From positions 1,674,001 to 1,738,000 of the forward strand of contig SPDT01000002.1 of NCBI GenBank assembly GCA_008477525.1: DNA of 64,000 bases, in the 5' to 3' direction. The notes beneath the pieces were generated by a model, which searched no databases, was not told the DNA's origin, and worked only from the letters and a program-made list of their open reading frames with translations. The translations under genes and the position numbers were made by a program. This document shows, in pieces, positions 2,161 through 64,000 of the stretch. Source of the stretch: Hypomyces perniciosus. Lineage: Eukaryota; Ascomycota; Sordariomycetes; Hypocreales; Hypocreaceae. Each line of letters starts with the position of its first letter. The first letter of the stretch is position 1.

Positions 2161-5100
2161 AGTTTTATATTATTTAATTACCTATTAAATTCTTTTATTT
2201 AAACTAGCTTTAACGATAATTTTATTTTTATAACTGCATTTTTTATATTTAACCATATTATATAATATCTTTTTTCCTTTAATTTATTTATGAATCTTAA
2301 AGGGCACTATAATATAAACTAAATAGGCTATTTAACAGTCTTTATTTTATTAAAGGGTATTATATTTATTTTAATATCTCTTCTTACTTATTAACTATAT
2401 ATAGTCTATAAAAAGTTTTTAAAGTATTTATATAGCTGTATTTAGGTTTTCCTTAATTAAATTAGTGATATTTACTTTTAAAAGGAGCTAGGTATATATA
2501 TATATTAACGAATTAAATTTTTATAGGCTTTAAAAGTAATATATTTCTTTTTTATATTAGCTATTAACTTAATCAAGTTTAAAAGTATAATGATAATTAT
2601 ATAATAATTTAAGCTTATATTTAAGTTTTATATAATAGTCATTAATATAAAGCAGTTAAAGAAAATAAAGTTAATATACTTTCCAGAATCTTTTATAAAG
2701 GTATTTATTAAAGTAACGATTAGGTTATATTTATTTACTTATTTAACTAGTCTATTACTTATAGCATTTAAAACTTAACCTAATTATTATATTTAATATA
2801 ATATATTAATGGCTTTTATTATAATTAAATTTAAAAAAGGCTAACCTTACCTTTTAAAGGTTTTTATTATAATATTAAAAAAGGCTTTATAATATATATT
2901 AATAATAAGATAACTATTAACTTTTATTTAATAAATATAATTACTTTTTAATGTTGAAGGCGAAAATTATTAATAAAATAAATTTAGTAATTTTTTAATA
3001 TATATAAAGATAAAAGGTTTAGTCTCCCTTTAATTATTAAATAAATTGAATATTTAAAAGTTAAAGTAAGATTTTATTTATTTTTTAAATAATATAATAT
3101 TTTAGTAAATTGATAGCTTTTAAATAAATATAATGTTAAAGCTGTCTTTTTAAATTAATAAAAAGGTAATATTATACTATTATTTTTATTTTTTTATATT
3201 AATTTAAAAGATTTTTTAAATTAAAGTTTTTTTAATAGTTTTAATAAAATTTATTATTTATAGATTAAATTTATAAAGTTTATCTCTTTTAAAGGATTTT
3301 TTTAAAGTATTATTTATAAAGTTATTTAAATTAATAACCTTTATTATAAAGTAAGCTAATAAACTTTCCTTTAATAAATTATTAAAGATATTTATTTAAA
3401 AGGGCTTTATTATAAAAGTAAAGGGTATTACTTTATTTAAAAGAAGGGGTCTTTAAATCTAAGCTTTAAAAGCAGTAAAAGATTTAATTAAAGTAGCTTA
3501 AAAAGCTTTTTTTAAATGCATTAAGTTTAGGTTTAAGGGGGTAAAGTTTTTTTTTTAAAGTTTTTAAATTTTAAATTCTTTAATACTTTTAAATATATTC
3601 TAATTTATATATTTATATTAATATATTAAAATGTAAAGTTATTATATTTTTTATATTATATAGTTTTAATATATTTATGAAGATTATAAAAGTTAAAGTA
3701 TTTATTATATTAAATTACTTATACTTTTTAAATTTAAAGCTTTATTACAGTTAAATAGTTAAAAAGTTTAAAGTTTATTTTAATTTCTTTTTAAAAAACA
3801 TAAAATAATAATAAATATTAATAGTTTTATTAAAAAAAGCCTTTTAATAAAAAGTTAAAAGTTTTTTAAACCTAATATTGTTTTAAGCTTTAATTAAAAT
3901 TAATATATTAATAAAACAATATTTAAAGTATTAATATAGTATTTAAAGATACTTTATATAAAAAGACTTTTTTATATATATACTTTTTTAATTTTTAAAC
4001 TGCTAGCTTTTATAGTTAAGTTTAAAATAAAAATTACCTTTTTAATTTTATTATTTTTAACTTATAATATAAAATTATATTTTACTTTTTAAAAATAAAT
4101 AATATTTTTATTTTTAAGCTTTTTAATTTTAATAACTTTTTATTTAACTTTAATCATAAAAATTCTTTTTTAACTATAATTTAATAAAATTTAAAAGAAA
4201 ATTTTATTATTAATTTTTTTAATTATTATATTTTATTTTTAATTTTTAAATTTTATAATAAAAATTAAGTTTTCATTATTTTATAAAATCATTTTTTTTC
4301 ATTAAAAGGTTTTTATTTATATTTTTAACTGCAATTATAGTTTATATAATTTACTTTATATTATTAATTACTAGTCAAGCATTTAAATTAATTTAAATTA
4401 AAAAGTAAAGTTTTATTTATTATTATTTATTATTTTAACAAATCTTTTTATTAATTAACTGTATAGTTATTAATTAAATTAAAAGGGGGTCTTTATTTAA
4501 TTTTTTCAAGTTTATAAAGGCTTTTAAAGAAAAAAGGCTTTTAAAAGTATTAATAAATACTTTATTTATTTATAAAATAGCTAAAAAATAATATTTTCTT
4601 CAATATTTAATTAAACTATTATTAATAATTTAAACTATTAAAAATAAAACTTTTTATTTAACTCTTTAAATTATATTAATTTATTTAATTTATATAAAAT
4701 TTTTATAAATTATAATAAACTATTTACTATTATTAAAAAAGTAAATACTTTTATTAGCTTACTTTAAAAAAAAAAGCTTTTTTAAATCTTTTTTAAAAAA
4801 AAAGAAATATTAAGTTTTATATTAAAACTAAAATTAAATTTAAAGATATTAATTTTAATATATTTATTATTAATATACTATTTTTTAAATATAAGCGGGA
4901 AAATTATAGTCCTTTTTTATTTTAAAAGTAAAAAAGTGCCTTTTTTTTAAATTACTAAATTACTGCCTGCCCAATAGTAATAAAGTTTAGTTATCTTTAA
5001 TTTACTTAAAGTTTGATGGTATTTATTATTTTTCTTTAAATGCCTAAAAGGGTAAAGGAGTATTATTAAGTTTATTTTTCTTTAAAGTTAATTAAAAGGT

Positions 5101-5162
5101 TATAAATTTTAATAAGTAGGCACCTAAAAGGTAGGGTACCTGTAGGTGTAGGAGGGAAGCTT
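2161..5162. repeat. RIP-saturated unidentified repeat, left copy
   Basis: Extremely AT-rich DNA in which almost every C is followed by C or T, the signature of saturated RIP. Its inner 1.6 kb (about 3520-5162) matches the reverse complement of 8227-9865, including the terminus next to the island (a GTAGGAGGGAAGCTT motif ending at 5162). It is therefore one arm of a large inverted pair. Stops are everywhere and I could not recognise a protein domain in any frame, so the element class is unknown. The outer part (2161-3520) has no visible partner in the window. Confidence 0.75.
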
Positions 5163-5290
5163 AAGGGTACAAGGTAAAACAGTAAACCTCTTGGGAAATA
5201 TTTTAACAGGTGCCTAGTCGGTAGTTCGTTCTTGAAGTGCAAGCGATTTAAGGGTATTGCGGGTGCGATGCGGTCCCAACGAAACTACTG

Positions 5291-6057
5291 TTATTTGGCC
5301 ATCCAAACAGCATCTGCATCATCACATGCAGCATCTTGAAAAGGATGTGCATCTAACCAGTTATCGACTGTCTCTTTTTTGGCATTCTTGTTATAGAAGT
5401 TATCTAATAATTGATTCAAATCTGAAAGATAAAGGGGATTAGTAATGTTTTAGCAAGATATATTAGAGTACTCTGTCCGCTTAACAGCATGCCCTGTGAC
5501 GGCTGAAGAGAGAATCTGGAAACATATTCATTAAGAAGTATAAGATGGCTGGGAATAGCCGTTCCTATTTATTTTCTGTTAGTTACTTAAATATTGACTA
5601 TATGAGAAAAAAAGCTCTATACCTTTAGGAATAGTGTAGATAAACGGCATCTCAACTTGTCCGCATTTATCCTCGCAATCAAGAACTTCGTCACAGTATC
5701 TCCGCACAAGCTCCTGCATCATAAAAGTATTTGGAAGCATGACTGCGCCGTTCGAAACTTCCAGCCTGTTCAGCCCTTGTCTAAAGGTAGGCAAAGCTTG
5801 CCAGTGTACTAACCGGATCTCGCGCTGATACCCGGGTAGACGAGCCCATTCTCATCCACAGTCACCCCTTCATCATATAAGTTGTCTGGCCGGCTGTTGT
5901 TATTCTCCCTGTGGTCGAATAGGCTTGAGCGGCGACGCGAGCTACAGTAGTGTAAGGTTGCAGGGAATGAGGAGTGAATCGCTTTCACTGAGAAATATCG
6001 CTGAAGTAATGAGCGTGGCTGTTGGCGCCAGAGGATATTGGAGGTACGCGTAATCAT
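5291..6057 (-). CDS. Tse2-like ADP-ribosyltransferase-fold protein, divergent gene A
   Basis: Proposed exons on the minus strand: 6057-5832, 5775-5623, 5564-5472, 5421-5291, giving 200 residues and a TAA stop. Motifs seen in order: LYDEGVTV (residues 60-67), NGAVMLPNT (about 83-91), an IPKG segment ending exon 2, and a SRFSLQPS segment in exon 3. The same motif order occurs in the neighbouring plus-strand gene, and the exon 2/3 junction falls at the same codon in phase. Known family: Tse2 is a bacterial type VI secretion toxin with an ADP-ribosyltransferase-like fold; related domains occur in filamentous fungi with unknown roles. Residues 1-27 are basic and lack acidic residues, so mitochondrial import is possible (inference). 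The first intron uses an AAG acceptor and intron 3 a GTACTC donor, both unusual, so those borders are uncertain. Intron 2 has a perfect CTAAC branch site. Confidence 0.62.
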
Positions 6058-6263
6058 GGTGAAAGGGCGACGGTTGATATTTTATGTTATGATGGATGAT
6101 TGAGTGGTTTGGCCTATGAATTGATCATCAGCGGGTTCGGCGTTAATTTCGCCGAGTGTGGAGTTACATTACTCCGTACCCAGACAACCTAACAAACCTT
6201 GACAACTTGATGTTGACGGGTAGCAACCCAATTCTATCATTGTCTGGCCAGACCTGACCCAAA
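6058..6263. promoter_or_regulatory. Shared divergent promoter of the two Tse2-like genes
   Basis: Only 206 bp separate the two start codons, so both promoters must share this space or overlap. It contains three dyad symmetries: CGGCG..CGCCG at 6138-6154, GGAGT..ACTCC at 6160-6175, and the 10-bp palindrome TCTGGCCAGA at 6243-6252. These are candidate protein-binding sites for joint control. No clear TATA box was found. The arrangement is seen directly; the regulatory role is inferred. Confidence 0.5.
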
Positions 6264-6919
6264 ATGTCGCCTCCGAATCTGATTAAGGTATGTAGGGAGC
6301 TCCCTAGGGAACTCTTTCGGTTAAATAATGGCCTTCAAGTCAAGTTACGCACCTGGACACCTACACGATATAGCTATGATATTATCGCGAAAAATGGACT
6401 CGTTGAACCGAAGGCCCTTGATCCAGTGAGCTATGTAGGTAAGTGATCTTTAACGTTTACCTGAGCTATTCCGAATTTCTTGAAATTAAATAGCATATCA
6501 GCTCCTAACGGCGCCTCAATGCGACCTAATTCGCCTTACCACCAATCGCTGGTGTCCTGGCGATTCCGAGGCGATAATACTATCGTATACTCAGTCCCCA
6601 AAGGTAAGCTGGAAAGTATTTCCTTTAATTTCAGGCTTCTATCTCGAAGTAGAATATACAAATGCTAAAGAGACTATAAAGGAATTAGACTTCCAGACGA
6701 CCTTCTCCTGGTGCACGAGCGGTCGGATCATTACTCCCTCCAGCCAGCAAGGATAATGACCATTGAACGTAAGTGATCCTGCGTTTAGTGACAATATAGT
6801 AAATACTGACACTTTAGAATTTAGACCTCGACGCAAAGATAAGCCGCTTCTTAATGGACAATGCCAAAATCTACACAAGGGAGCAGTGGCTTCAAGCATA
6901 TCCAATGGCTATTAAATAG
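6264..6919 (+). CDS. Tse2-like ADP-ribosyltransferase-fold protein, divergent gene B
   Basis: Four exons, 6264-6438, 6502-6603, 6682-6768 and 6825-6919, give a 152-residue protein; all introns have GT..AG ends (three with GTAAG donors) and are 56-78 bp. Motifs: PRELFR at residues 14-19, NGASMRPN at 61-68, VYSVPKG at 87-93, VHERSDHYSL at 103-112 and REQWLQAYP near the C-terminus. This order and the short total length fit the fungal Tse2 ADP-ribosyltransferase domain family (Pfam ADPRTs_Tse2); the domain fills the protein, with no signal peptide or membrane segment. The fungal role is not established: self/non-self conflict, antagonism or a domesticated enzyme are possible. No premature stops or RIP-type changes are seen despite RIP-saturated DNA on both sides. 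Gene A starts 206 bp upstream on the other strand. Confidence 0.75.
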
Positions 6920-7072
6920 TTTAGGGTAGGTAAATCTCGCATATGTGATTATTGGAGGAGTCTTGAAATGTAAGGGGGTGCCGTGGTTGAGGTAGCAACC
7001 TAGGGCCTCCTGTGAGATTGGGGAAGTTCCCAGCGTGCTCCTTTGAGGTGGTGATTGTGGCTGTCGTGGGTA

Positions 7073-7770
7073 CTATAGTCTGAAGGGGCAGTTTGTCCTT
7101 GACAATAATGCTGTAGTAGTACTCTCTCTAGTCCCCACAGTCGACACTAATAGAAGTGTTTCATAGATTGAACTTGTTGGAGTAATGCCGTAGTAGTCTC
7201 TAATCCTTGCAAGTGTCGCCGTGCCAGTTTTCGAACCAGTCGATCCATGTGTCGATTGTGTTAGGGTCGTGTTCAGGTGAGCCGCCGACAGATAAAAGGT
7301 GCGCAATAGATCTTTCTTATCACCCCATGCTATGAGATTGATAAAATGGTGACAGGAGACTCCCAACTTCACCTCGCCCGGGATGGCATCAATGTTGGAG
7401 ACAAGAATGCCAGAGTCAGCCTCAGGGTCGGTAAAGTCTTTAATCATATCGCCGAAGAAAACTTTGAAACCGGCAATCGAAAGCATGGAAAAGGCTGTCC
7501 TGGAAGAGGTCAATACTTCACTCGGTCCCAAGGAAAAAATATTGGTTTAGAACCGAGCGAAATGGGTTGACCTACAGGCGAATCCAGGCAGTATTAGAGT
7601 GGACGACCACGCAATGGCCCTTACCTAGAAGGAGACAGCAAGTTTCGTATTACATATGAGGGACGCTATCCGCGGCGTAGAAGTAGGAGATAGGACGGAA
7701 CGATAACAAATATAGAATGTATGGGAAGAGGCTGTGGAAGAGGAGGATTAAGAGTAAGGCATAGACGGTG
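7073..7770 (-). pseudogene. Decayed gene with a hydrophobic segment, unknown product
   Basis: A 152-codon open frame ends at 7073. It includes a stretch reading DMIKDFTDPEADSG and looks protein-like. Upstream on the same strand (about 7770-7650) another frame encodes a long hydrophobic run (LLLILLF..PYILYLL) that could be a membrane helix. Between them lies an intron-like segment with a GTAAGG donor and a CTGTAG acceptor (about 7573-7622). An in-frame TAA directly after the hydrophobic exon, and a frame change near 7530, break the reading frame. I do not recognise the family. It could be a third gene of the island inactivated by a few point mutations, or a wrong join of unrelated pieces. Confidence 0.3.
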
Positions 7771-8226
7771 GTCAAGGTAAATTAAAAGCAAATATTAATG
7801 GTGGGGTCCTGGTCGGGAGGCTGGACCTGATCGGGGCGCTTAGGTTGACTACTGAATATGGTATACCGTCTCTAAACCTGCACAAACGTTGCACACAATT
7901 CAGACTATTCAACTTCAAGTTGAAAGCATGACCTATTTTGACAAGTCAAGTTGGTATTTTACTGTAACTTAAACTCTGCATATCGTTGGCTCGCACTGAT
8001 TGAGTGACGCACGCGTCATCTTCAGTAGTTTCGAAAAGTTGTCAACCATTTATCTCAAGTGTATATGGTCGCTTTTTTCTCAAAGAATTCTGTAAGTTTC
8101 TTGTTCAACTCTGTACTCATATTCAGTTGTGTGTATCTCTATGTCTTGCAGTTACTACATACCAGTAAGGGGCATTTCGACAGCTGGTTAGAGTGAATAG
8201 TAGTCTGAATGCTTATATACAAGGAG
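7771..8226. other. Island right flank, nothing recognised
   Basis: Moderate base composition, no open frame of note and no repeat match elsewhere in the window. It ends where the right copy of the inverted RIP-degraded repeat begins. Confidence 0.5.
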
Positions 8227-9865
8227 AAGCTTCCCTCCTACACCTACCTTTTAAATGCCTATTTATTAAAATTTATAACCTTTTAATTAACTATTAAAAA
8301 AAAAATTTAACAATACTCTTTTACCCCTTTTAAATATTTAAAGAAAGATAGCAAATATTATTAGACTTTAAGTAAATTAAAAATAATTAAACTTTATTGC
8401 TGCTAGGCAGGCAGTAATTTAGCGACTTAAAAAGGAAAGCACTTTTTTACTTTTAGGATAAAAAAAGACTATAATCCTTTTATTTACGCTTCAAAAATAC
8501 TATATTAATAATAAAGATATTAAAACTAATATCTTTAAATTTAATTTTAGTTTTAATATAAAATTTAATATTTCTCTTTTTTTAAAAAAGACTTAAAAAA
8601 GCCTTTTTTCCTTTTTTTAAAGTAAACTAATAAAGATATTTACCTTTAATGATAGTAAATAATCTACTATAGCTTATAAAATCTTTATTTAAATTAAAAA
8701 AATTAATATAATTTAAAAAGTTAAATAAAAAGTTTTATTTTTAATAGCTTAAACTATTAATAATTACTTAATTAAATATTAAAGAAAGTATTATTTCTTA
8801 ACTGCTTTATAAATAAATACAATGCTTATTAATACTTTTAAAGGCCTTTTATTTTTAAAGGCCTTTATGAACTTTAAAAAATTAAATAAAACCCCCCTTT
8901 AATTTAATTAATAATTATATAGCCAGTTAATAAAGAGACCTATTAAAAGAATAAATAATAATAAACTAAACTTTACCTTTTAACTTAAATTAACTTAAAT
9001 ATTTAGCTAGTAATTAATAGCTTAAAGTAAATTATATAAACTATAATTATAGTTAAAGGTATAAATAAAAACCCTTTAATAAAAAAATTTTTTTTTACTT
9101 TATAAAATAATAAAAGGTTAACCTTTATTATAAAACTTAAAACCTAAAAATAAAATAATAATTAAAAAACCTAATAATAAAATTTTCCTTTAAATCCTAT
9201 TAAACTATAATTAAAAAAAAAACTTTATTATTAAAGTTAAATAAGAAATTATTAAAATTAAAAAGCTTAATAAAAAAGATATTATTTACTTTTAAAAAGT
9301 AAAATCTAGCTTTATACTATAAACTAGAAATAATAAAATTAAAAAAATATTTTTTACTTTAAACTGAACTATAAAAGCTAGTGGCTTAAAGATTAAAAAG
9401 GTATATAAATAAAAGAGTTTTTTTATATAAAGTATTTTTAAATATTATATTAATACTTTAAATATTTTTTTAATTAATATATTAATTTTAATTAAAGCTT
9501 GAAAAAGTGCTAGGTTTAAAAAAACCCTTAATCTTTTACTAAAAGGCCCCTTTTAGTAAACCTATTAATATTTACTATTACTTTATCTCTTTTAAAAAGG
9601 AAATTAAAATAAAATTTAAACTTTTTAACGATTTAGCTTTAATAAAGCTTTAGATTTAAAAAGTATAAGTAATTTAATATAATAAATGCTTTAAGTTTTA
9701 TAACTTTTAAAAATATACTAGAATAATATACTATAAATAGTGCAGTAAGCCTGCCTTTTAATATATTAATAAAAATAAAAACTATAATAATTTTATTTAA
9801 TATATTAATTACTTTAAACTTTATTAATTTAATACTTTAAACTATTATATATACTTAATTATTAA
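8227..9865. repeat. RIP-saturated unidentified repeat, right copy (inverted)
   Basis: Reverse-complement match to about 3520-5162. The island-facing terminus (AAGCTT at 8227 followed by CCCTCCTACACCTACC) mirrors 5162, and matches persist out to about 9800. The copy stops at the inverted-repeat element at 9873, so it is shorter than the left copy. Both copies are RIP-saturated. No protein domain could be identified. Confidence 0.75.
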
Positions 9866-9872
9866 AAATAGT

Positions 9873-16778: not shown

Positions 16779-17422
16779 TTAACAGAAACTGGCAGCCGAA
16801 AGGCATTGGTTCCCGCACTGGCCTCCAAGCAAGGTGTCGGAAGTCCAGCCGGACAGCCATCGGCCTTCGTACCTCCCGCATTGACTATACACGGCATAGG
16901 AGGAACCCACCAAGTCGCTCCATCGGGCATTGGTACCAGTGAGTTTGTGCGTAAAGGCGAAGCAGCAGCTGCCTTGTACAGAATTGCCAACGCAGCTGGA
17001 GCGCAGGCCGGCGGGAAGAGGGTTGTTGGAAAACCTCGGGTCTCTCATTGAGTTGATGAGGTCCAGACAGCGGGCGTCCAGGGCAAGGTTTCTGAAATTA
17101 TTATCGCAGTGCAATTGATTGCTTCCACATCGTTTGTTGTGTGGGAGGGCTGCCCCGGCAGACGGTTTTTCGTCAGGGATGCCATAGCTGAATTTTGCAT
17201 TGTCAGCGGAAGGGCGTAAGGGGAAGATTTTCTCGTCAAAGACAAGAACAAACTAATTAGGTGGTTGTCATACAGGGTGATATTGATGCTCCCGACTGGG
17301 ACAACGTCAAGGACAGCAAATTCTGTGGCCGCCACCTCTTCCGCCGGAGCTGGCACCGCTACCACAAGGGGCAGAGACGTAAAGAGGGCGACAACGCCTA
17401 GAGCAAGCTTGGTGACTATCAT
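16779..17422 (-). CDS. Small secreted cysteine-rich protein, WD-like fungal domain
   Basis: Two exons on the minus strand, 17422-17274 and 17187-16779, give 185 residues. The 86-bp intron has a GTATGA donor, a GCTGACA branch site and a TTCAG acceptor; without it the downstream frame would be wrong. Residues 1-22 form a clear signal peptide (LALGVVALFTSLPLVVAV) followed by an acidic stretch typical of a pro-region. The mature part has ten cysteines, including a CC pair and a C-terminal GQCGNQCLS..FC cluster. The spacing resembles the fungal WD-like domain family of secreted proteins, whose function is not established; assignment is from memory of the pattern. Codons look normal and there are no RIP stops, in contrast to both flanks. 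The small size, secretion and repeat-rich setting resemble effector candidates, but that is inference. Confidence 0.65.
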
Positions 17423-17540
17423 AATGGTATGCGGGAGAAGCTGCGAATACTATGTCGTTGTAGAGCGGCGGTCCTGTGGTAATGGGGTTGTGGTGGAAGG
17501 TGCGGCGATGCTCTCTTATTAGATGGGTGGAATACCTACC

Positions 17541-62480: not shown

Positions 62481-63924
62481 TCACGTCGAGGTCATAATTT
62501 CGTCAGGGCGCACGAAAAACGCAATCGCGATGATCAAATACCTAAGCAACGGCAATTAGTCACATCGCATCAGGTATCATAGGCCAGACGATACTTACGC
62601 GCCGATCAAGAGCAGACCCTCAAAGTAGTTGATCTTCCCGCTTCGCACGAGACAATTGAGGACAAGCGTCGACATGGTCATCACAATGGTCTCAAATGTG
62701 TCGAACTTCAGCGACATGTTCTTGCCAATGATCCAGCCCACGACCACCAAAAAGGGCGTGACAAACAACGAGATCTGCAATGTGCTTCCCACAATAACGG
62801 AGACGGCCAGGTTCGTCCTCCCGGTCGAGGACCACTGAACTGCCCCGACAAAGCACCCAGCGTTGCCAACAACCGGCACTAGAATCATGCCAATGAAGCT
62901 GCGGCTGACGCCAAGTGTCTCGACGAACCCATCAATGCTGTCCACTAAGGCATCGGAGCAGCCGCCCACACCTAGGGTCGCAACAATGAGGACAACACTG
63001 CTGGCGACCCAATGTAGCTTGTCCTCGGGCTCGTCTTCCTCCTCATTGAAGAGATGTGCATGGCTCACTGACTGGAAGTACAAGTACAGCAGGTAGAAGA
63101 TGAGGAGGAAGATTGATGTGATGCGTGAGAGGGTCAAGACGTAGTCGGTCGGGTCATTATTTAAGTCGCCGGCGTTCGGATCGGTGATGTGGAGGGCCGA
63201 TGGCATGATGAGATACGAGCACGAGATGATCATCAGAGACGTCAGAATGCCGGCCACGTCGACGCTGATTTCAACTGGCGCCTTTCCATTCTCAAGGTCC
63301 CCGAGGAAGAAAGACACGCCTAGGATCTGTAAACGTTTTATTAGCAGGAAGGAATGCCGGGGGGAGTACATCCGGGGAGGAAGAGAGTCTCACCAGCAAG
63401 GTTGAAGATAGAATGCTTCCAATCATACTCGACTGCACAATGCCAATTTCTCCTTCCTTGAGAGCACTAATGCCGACCTACAGAACAGAAGTCAGGAGAC
63501 AGCAAAGGAATGGACAAGGTCAAAGTATACGTACGATCATTTCCACCAAATTGCCGAAACTCGCGTTGATCAGGCCACCGGCTATGGACCCGACTACAGC
63601 AGCAAGCTGCTCAGTTGCAAAGGTCAGAACGGAGGCCAGCGGGAGCATGGCAAGGAAGTTGAGGGCAAAAATTGCGGCGGGGGGCCATCCCCATTCACCG
63701 GCGTATAGGCCGAGAGGCACACAGATGAGAAGAACATTGGTATGGCTGCATCGAAGAGAAGCATCCAATGCATGCCAGGCCTCACGCCCAGCCCGCCATA
63801 CCAGAGACTGTTGTTCGAGTTGGTTCGAATCCGTTTGTTCGCCGGCCGGCAGCAACGGGGTTGACTCGCTAGACTCGGCCACAAGCCCGGAGTCCTGCTC
63901 AGGGGGCGAAGTGGGATTAGCCAT
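62481..63924 (-). CDS. Cation/proton exchanger of the CAX family (vacuolar Ca2+/H+ type)
   Basis: Four exons on the minus strand, 63924-63535, 63477-63394, 63326-62599 and 62541-62481, give 420 residues, the usual fungal CAX length. Introns of 57-67 bp have GTACGT, GTGAGA and GTAAGT donors. The N-terminus is acidic with an STPLLP motif, then about eleven hydrophobic segments with an acidic loop (EEEDEPED, residues 253-260). The c-1 signature GNLVEMIV (124-131) keeps its glutamate. The c-2 signature, normally GNAAEH, reads GNAGCF (312-317), so the conserved Glu-His pair is missing. CAX proteins exchange vacuolar protons for cytosolic Ca2+ (or Mn2+); with one of the two acidic centres lost, transport may be altered or absent (inference). 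The C-terminus ends in the usual YLIIAIAF segment. The ATG at 63924 is the first in frame; 76 bp of upstream sequence are visible. Confidence 0.9.
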
Positions 63925-64000
63925 ATCAGACTGACGCCACGAAGAAGGCCTTTGGAGAAGAGAAGAAGGGAAAAGGACTCAAAGAAGTTTGGCGTCGAGC

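Follow-up and report, generated by a model that had tools for sequence, protein, structure and literature searches.

A divergent pair of Tse2-type genes in a fungus: a candidate ADP-ribosyltransferase and a degenerate, probably mitochondrial paralogue

Two Tse2-type genes that lie head to head in Hypomyces perniciosus belong to two fungal protein sets whose pairing, judged by sequence comparison, is old and extends far beyond the locus in which it was noticed. The shorter gene (S) has the full set of polar residues characteristic of its relatives, and the longer one (L) has lost this set and carries a presequence-like N-terminus. We tentatively propose, as a reading with not quite an even chance of being right, that S is an ADP-ribosyltransferase and L its dead, probably mitochondrial paralogue, which restrains S or shields its target. 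If this is true, a transferase with the Tse2 fold has long been retained in fungi beside its linked, dead paralogue, a bacterial-type toxin fold has been turned to fungal use, and the pair offers a testable eukaryotic case of ADP-ribosylation controlled by an enzyme and a pseudoenzyme. Tse2-type domains in fungi are labelled 'toxin' by profile alone. The window analysed here is a stretch of 64,000 nucleotides of contig SPDT01000002.1.

Results

The Tse2-type S gene (6264..6919, + strand) and the L gene (5291..6057, - strand), a putative pseudo-ADP-ribosyltransferase, were delimited by splice models, Pfam search and residue content. Their start codons are separated by 206 bp (6058..6263), a candidate shared promoter that measures 212 bp at a second locus on contig C3. 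The splice model of S consists of exons 6264-6438, 6502-6603, 6682-6768 and 6825-6919 with introns of 63, 78 and 56 nt; its frame is open over 152 aa and the donors of the predicted introns are GTAAGT, GTAAGC and GTAAGT. The L model has exons 6057-5814, 5757-5623, 5564-5472 and 5421-5291, introns of 56, 58 and 50 nt and a product of 200 aa. These models confirm the coordinates of the two divergent genes as given in a preliminary description, and the difference in length and N-terminus noted there is upheld, the N-terminal extension being found on L alone. The shared intron position that it reported is extended from one intron to three: all introns of S and L occupy identical alignment columns and are in phase 1, which suggests one spliced ancestor. 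In a search with the Pfam profile PF18648 (ADPRTs_Tse2), S scored 127.3 bits (E 8.5e-37), L 123.3 bits (E 1.4e-35) and the L of contig C3 130.3 bits, all far higher than the curated cut-off of 26.6 bits, and the original assignment of both translations to the Tse2-type family thus stands. Structure prediction agrees, in that the models of close relatives of S and of L had Tse2 (5ako_C) as their best match and so point to a Tse2-type transferase fold common to both.

The pair occupies an island between two RIP-saturated copies of the same repeat, which is some 1.65 kb long, the left at 3555..5162 (- strand) and the right, inverted, at about 8227..9870 (+ strand). With RIP composite indices of +1.01 and +1.23 in the arms, the inverted RIP-saturated repeats first described on each side are recovered. 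The repeat is AT-rich and present in many copies genome-wide, with at least 55 matching pieces after scoring of 40 out of 211 initial candidates, and long copies share 72-85% identity with the right arm. Within the island the index was -0.51 for L, -0.03 for S and 0.00 for the remainder. The supposedly RIP-free island is thus unsaturated, but S and the remainder are less clean than two normal-GC comparison stretches (-0.83 and -0.88). Where the island meets the right repeat, tblastn and inspection of frames revealed the relic of a second S-type gene (8034..8229, - strand). It ends at the repeat, contains stops and corresponds in one part to S residues 100-123 and in another to residues 122-147. 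The flanking repeat copies point toward one another and, by eye, the left one has some 12 additional bases close to the end that faces the island.

Both frames had been described as intact, and both are indeed open under the splice models; L, however, is not plainly so. Alignment with its paralogue on C3 indicated that the window L has lost the GT donor for intron 3 and has a weak and non-ancestral one, GTACTC, 6 nt downstream, the use of which preserves the frame and lengthens the product by two codons. The acceptor of intron 1 reads AAG in the window L against CAG in the C3 copy. Conserved L columns were broken at 2 of 44 positions in the window L (family median 0) and at none in the C3 L, and the end branch of the window L is the longer in the tree (0.15 versus 0.081), indicating faster change. 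From its sequence, the window L may use GTACTC as a splice donor or encode a truncated product, and the faster branch, the broken columns and the lost donor suggest that it may be decaying. In the window S, 2 of 41 conserved S columns were broken, compared with a family median of 1.

Relatives of S and L formed two sets separated by a fully supported branch in a tree of 135 rows, in which a mixed gene model (P0134) was the sole misplaced row; the S and L alignments matched each other at 99.8% probability. Both sets include species that, from their names, we take to be Eurotiomycetes, Dothideomycetes, lichen-forming fungi and Sordariomycetes, and the split therefore looks ancient. Residues R19, N21, R29, H104, E105, H109, S111 and Q113 are invariant in the 42 rows of the S alignment. 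A wider search returned 174 proteins, of which the best 120 were used, with the extra L relatives assigned on their profile scores rather than on a tree. Among the matches listed in this wider set (83 S and 95 L, gaps scored as misses), R19 was found in 78/83 S versus 15/95 L, N21 in 76/83 versus 4/95, R29 in 76/83 versus 0/95, S64 in 77/83 versus 2/95, R66 in 78/83 versus 5/95, H104 in 79/83 versus 6/95 and H109 in 78/83 versus 2/95. When the count was confined to rows with letters at R19, N21, R29, H104 and H109 (75 S, 69 L), all five residues were present in 70 of the 75 S, while 48 of the 69 L kept none, 18 kept one, two kept two and one kept three. For the polar set R19, N21, R29, S64, H104 and H109, the window S has six of six and the window L and C3 L each have none. 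L has invariant residues of its own, which argues that it is conserved rather than drifting. By analogy with the fold, the polar set of S may bind NAD or act in catalysis, and its loss from L fits the initial suggestion that one product may moderate the other.

The N-terminal extension of L, to which S has nothing comparable, contains a median of 6 basic residues in 28 and is acid-free in 49 of 62 L proteins. Directly ahead of the conserved domain, 53 of the 62 scorable L proteins have R-x-[FYL]-[STA], a cleavage-type motif of mitochondrial presequences. The window L and the C3 L both count among the L proteins with presequence character. The helical moment was above that of shuffles (0.05 or below) in only 2 of 62, and the L of C. 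karsti (P0105) is an exception in having an acidic N-terminus. By its sequence L is probably mitochondrial, and the early idea that the longer product might be so is in keeping with this basic, mostly acid-free extension and its motif.

The second L of the genome, on contig C3, lies outside AT-rich sequence and is 78% identical in DNA to the window L, with dN 0.115, dS 0.547 and dN/dS 0.21 over 197 codons. Upstream of it, at 212 bp and in divergent orientation, is a piece of the S first exon with in-frame stops; its local score was 52, and 200 shuffles reached no more than 27. The C3 spacer gave a borderline match to the window spacer (28 against at most 26 in shuffles), and for the parts of S after exon 1 the scores at C3 were not above those of shuffles. 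On C3, 18 kb from the L locus, lies a broken S-type 3' piece with a 70% match over 165 nt to the S relic that borders the right repeat of the island. Taken together, the divergent S relic beside the C3 L and the matching broken S pieces indicate that the divergent pair was duplicated. As far as the sequences tell, at C3 S died and L stayed open and constrained, though one genome cannot prove a rule. Beside the C3 L, frames (L006 and C3:2255860-2258820) that by eye resemble an aminotransferase of the GABA type and an aldehyde dehydrogenase are possibly GABA-shunt enzymes.

The survey of other fungi covered 131 tag prefixes among the matches listed, with 23 assemblies containing both S and L. 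Within the listed matches, the two were on contigs of equal length in 20 of the 23, had consecutive tags in eight and were within four tags in 11; JGI tags are not positional, and equality of contig size is a proxy for linkage, since the size given is that of the longest contig of each protein cluster. This recurrence supports the link between S and L implied when the pair was first proposed to act together. Tolypocladium capitatum has two linked S/L pairs, one of them on a 7.0 kb contig. Contig sizes differ in the remaining 3 of 23, Xylaria hypoxylon (E0Z10), Akanthomyces lecanii (LLEC1) and M. anisopliae (MANI, where the S and L tags are 14 apart), and in Hirsutella the contigs are equal in size, yet the tags are distant, so that S and L are apart in four assemblies. 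One-strand gene models containing both types occur in Bachmanniomyces (S then L) and Neonectria (L then S); it is doubtful that they are true fusions, but their opposite orders suggest that orientation varies while linkage persists. Distances among S and among L proteins were correlated (r 0.78, n = 24 pairs, 0 of 2000 permutations as high, species tree uncorrected), the 24 pairs taking in the split P0146 and two unlinked pairs. Single-type prefixes were common among the matches listed, 43 of 131 having S only and 65 L only, counts that are weak given clustering at 90%, the use of the best 120 of 174 proteins and the limited sensitivity of the search. Among the same matches Emericellopsis has four S and one L, and the lost copy is hence not always S. 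Joint horizontal transfer, hinted at by Hypoxylon, fell short of significance in the AU test (S, p 0.28; L, p 0.18). An L-L neighbourhood was seen in Claviceps maximensis, where two L-type genes (P0148/P0149) have consecutive tags (E4U21_002644/5).

Discussion

That L acts as a brake on S is the best single reading of these observations, because the two are linked across classes, the residues have been lost from L with the fold kept, and L has survived without its own S. The part in fungal self/non-self or microbial conflict first suggested for the pair is a conjecture. S would be an NAD-dependent ADP-ribosyltransferase of the Tse2 fold, probably cytosolic as it has no presequence, and capable of doing harm. 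L is an ancient paralogue of S that retained the fold and introns, lost the S-type residues and gained a presequence-like extension; no longer an enzyme of the S kind, it would most likely restrain S either by pairing with it or by occupying its target and so shielding it, perhaps at or inside mitochondria. There are observations that sit uneasily with such a brake. With L mitochondrial and S cytosolic, contact between them would be confined to the time before import unless S were imported as well. Some L proteins keep part of the polar set (one residue in 18/69, two in 2/69, three in 1/69; R19 in 15/95), and the low helical moments and the acidic N-terminus in C. karsti weaken the case for a presequence. 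S is not always the copy lost, as Emericellopsis illustrates, contig sizes differ in three assemblies and the Hirsutella tags are distant. At C3 just exon 1 of S is recognisable next to a borderline spacer, and the window L may itself be decaying.

Transferases controlled by a neighbouring gene are familiar from DarTG and other ADP-ribosyltransferase toxin-antitoxin systems, whose antidotes are either ADP-ribosyl hydrolases or binders with a different fold; L as a candidate antidote differs in being a dead paralogue. Dead paralogues do serve as partners in prozyme-type regulation, as in AdoMetDC of trypanosomes, where the paralogue activates the active enzyme. The enzyme class is another one there, and activation contrasts with the inhibition proposed here. 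An analogous arrangement, in which L as a regulatory pseudo-subunit would activate S or direct its location, the two forming a heteromeric housekeeping transferase rather than a toxin with its brake, would account for the conserved pairing of homologous proteins, the conserved residues peculiar to L and the correlated distances, uncorrected as these are for the species tree. We think it rather unlikely, as the C3 L persists by a dead S (though another S exists in the genome) and the presequence is on L only. It is also unlikely that L has a mitochondrial role of its own, such as binding NAD or ADP-ribose, and that the linkage goes back to a tandem origin or serves co-regulation by a common promoter. 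The retention of L alone at C3, the different N-termini and the many single-type prefixes, weak as those counts are, speak for such independence, but a shared promoter alone hardly explains linkage across classes, and the one-strand models in opposite orders and the two linked pairs in one genome disfavour it as well.

Decay would make the island pair a functionless relic, spared by RIP because it is nearly single copy. The lost donor and faster branch of L, the broken second S and the two conserved columns broken in each gene are what this would predict; the well-formed donors, open frame and whole polar set of S, its near-median number of broken columns and the low dN/dS between the two L copies leave it an improbable account. 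As a special case of the brake, the locus might be a selfish toxin-antidote or incompatibility element, with S lethal to nuclei, spores or fusion partners without L. Linkage, duplication of the pair, its position between repeats and the death of S with L retained at C3 would suit such an element, and passages of PMC3482391 report that toxin domains of bacterial polymorphic systems have entered fungi, the transfers described there concerning domains other than Tse2. Selfish elements are not usually so deeply conserved and the Hypoxylon transfer was not significant, and we consider this case very doubtful. Returning to the enzyme and its restraining paralogue, a bolder version would see an ancient toxin-antidote module of filamentous ascomycetes, its antidote a dead, mitochondria-addressed paralogue of the toxin. 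The target of S would then be mitochondrial or NAD-linked in incompatible or uninherited cytoplasm, and L would protect the organelles of its carrier; this we judge to be quite unlikely.

Our literature search found no study of fungal PF18648 proteins and no description of an S/L split, pairing or presequence within the family. PF18648 serves as a test or reference set in two papers, and its family structure is given as 5AKO (PMC10038667). S and L score far above its cut-off, and the family lumps the active-looking S with the degenerate L. The closest known systems include Tse2/Tsi2, the effector and immunity pair of Pseudomonas aeruginosa: there too the two genes are adjacent, relatives of S and L are predicted to share the Tse2 fold, and a toxin with its own brake is possible common ground. 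Tsi2 is no paralogue of Tse2, in contrast to L with its Tse2 fold and presequence, and the fungal pair is eukaryotic, spliced and divergent, with an S that may be toxic. Passages of PMC3325213 state that the T79A/S80A allele of Tse2 is non-toxic, that deletion of tsi2 alone is lethal with tse2 present, and that Tsi2 is a dimer unlike other immunity proteins. According to parts of PMC6617251, Tse2 overexpressed in yeast acts there, but Tse2 delivered by P. aeruginosa affected bacteria only in co-culture, which tells against the brake.

Other features in the window are minor. A 157-aa open frame in the island (7076-7546, - strand), for which a Pfam search gave no match, may belong to an unrecognised gene or have arisen by chance. 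An open frame at 17048-17449 (- strand), likewise without a match in a Pfam search, has by eye a start resembling a secretion signal. The normal-GC right end of the window contains a sodium/calcium exchanger gene (PF01699) at 62598-63978 (- strand).
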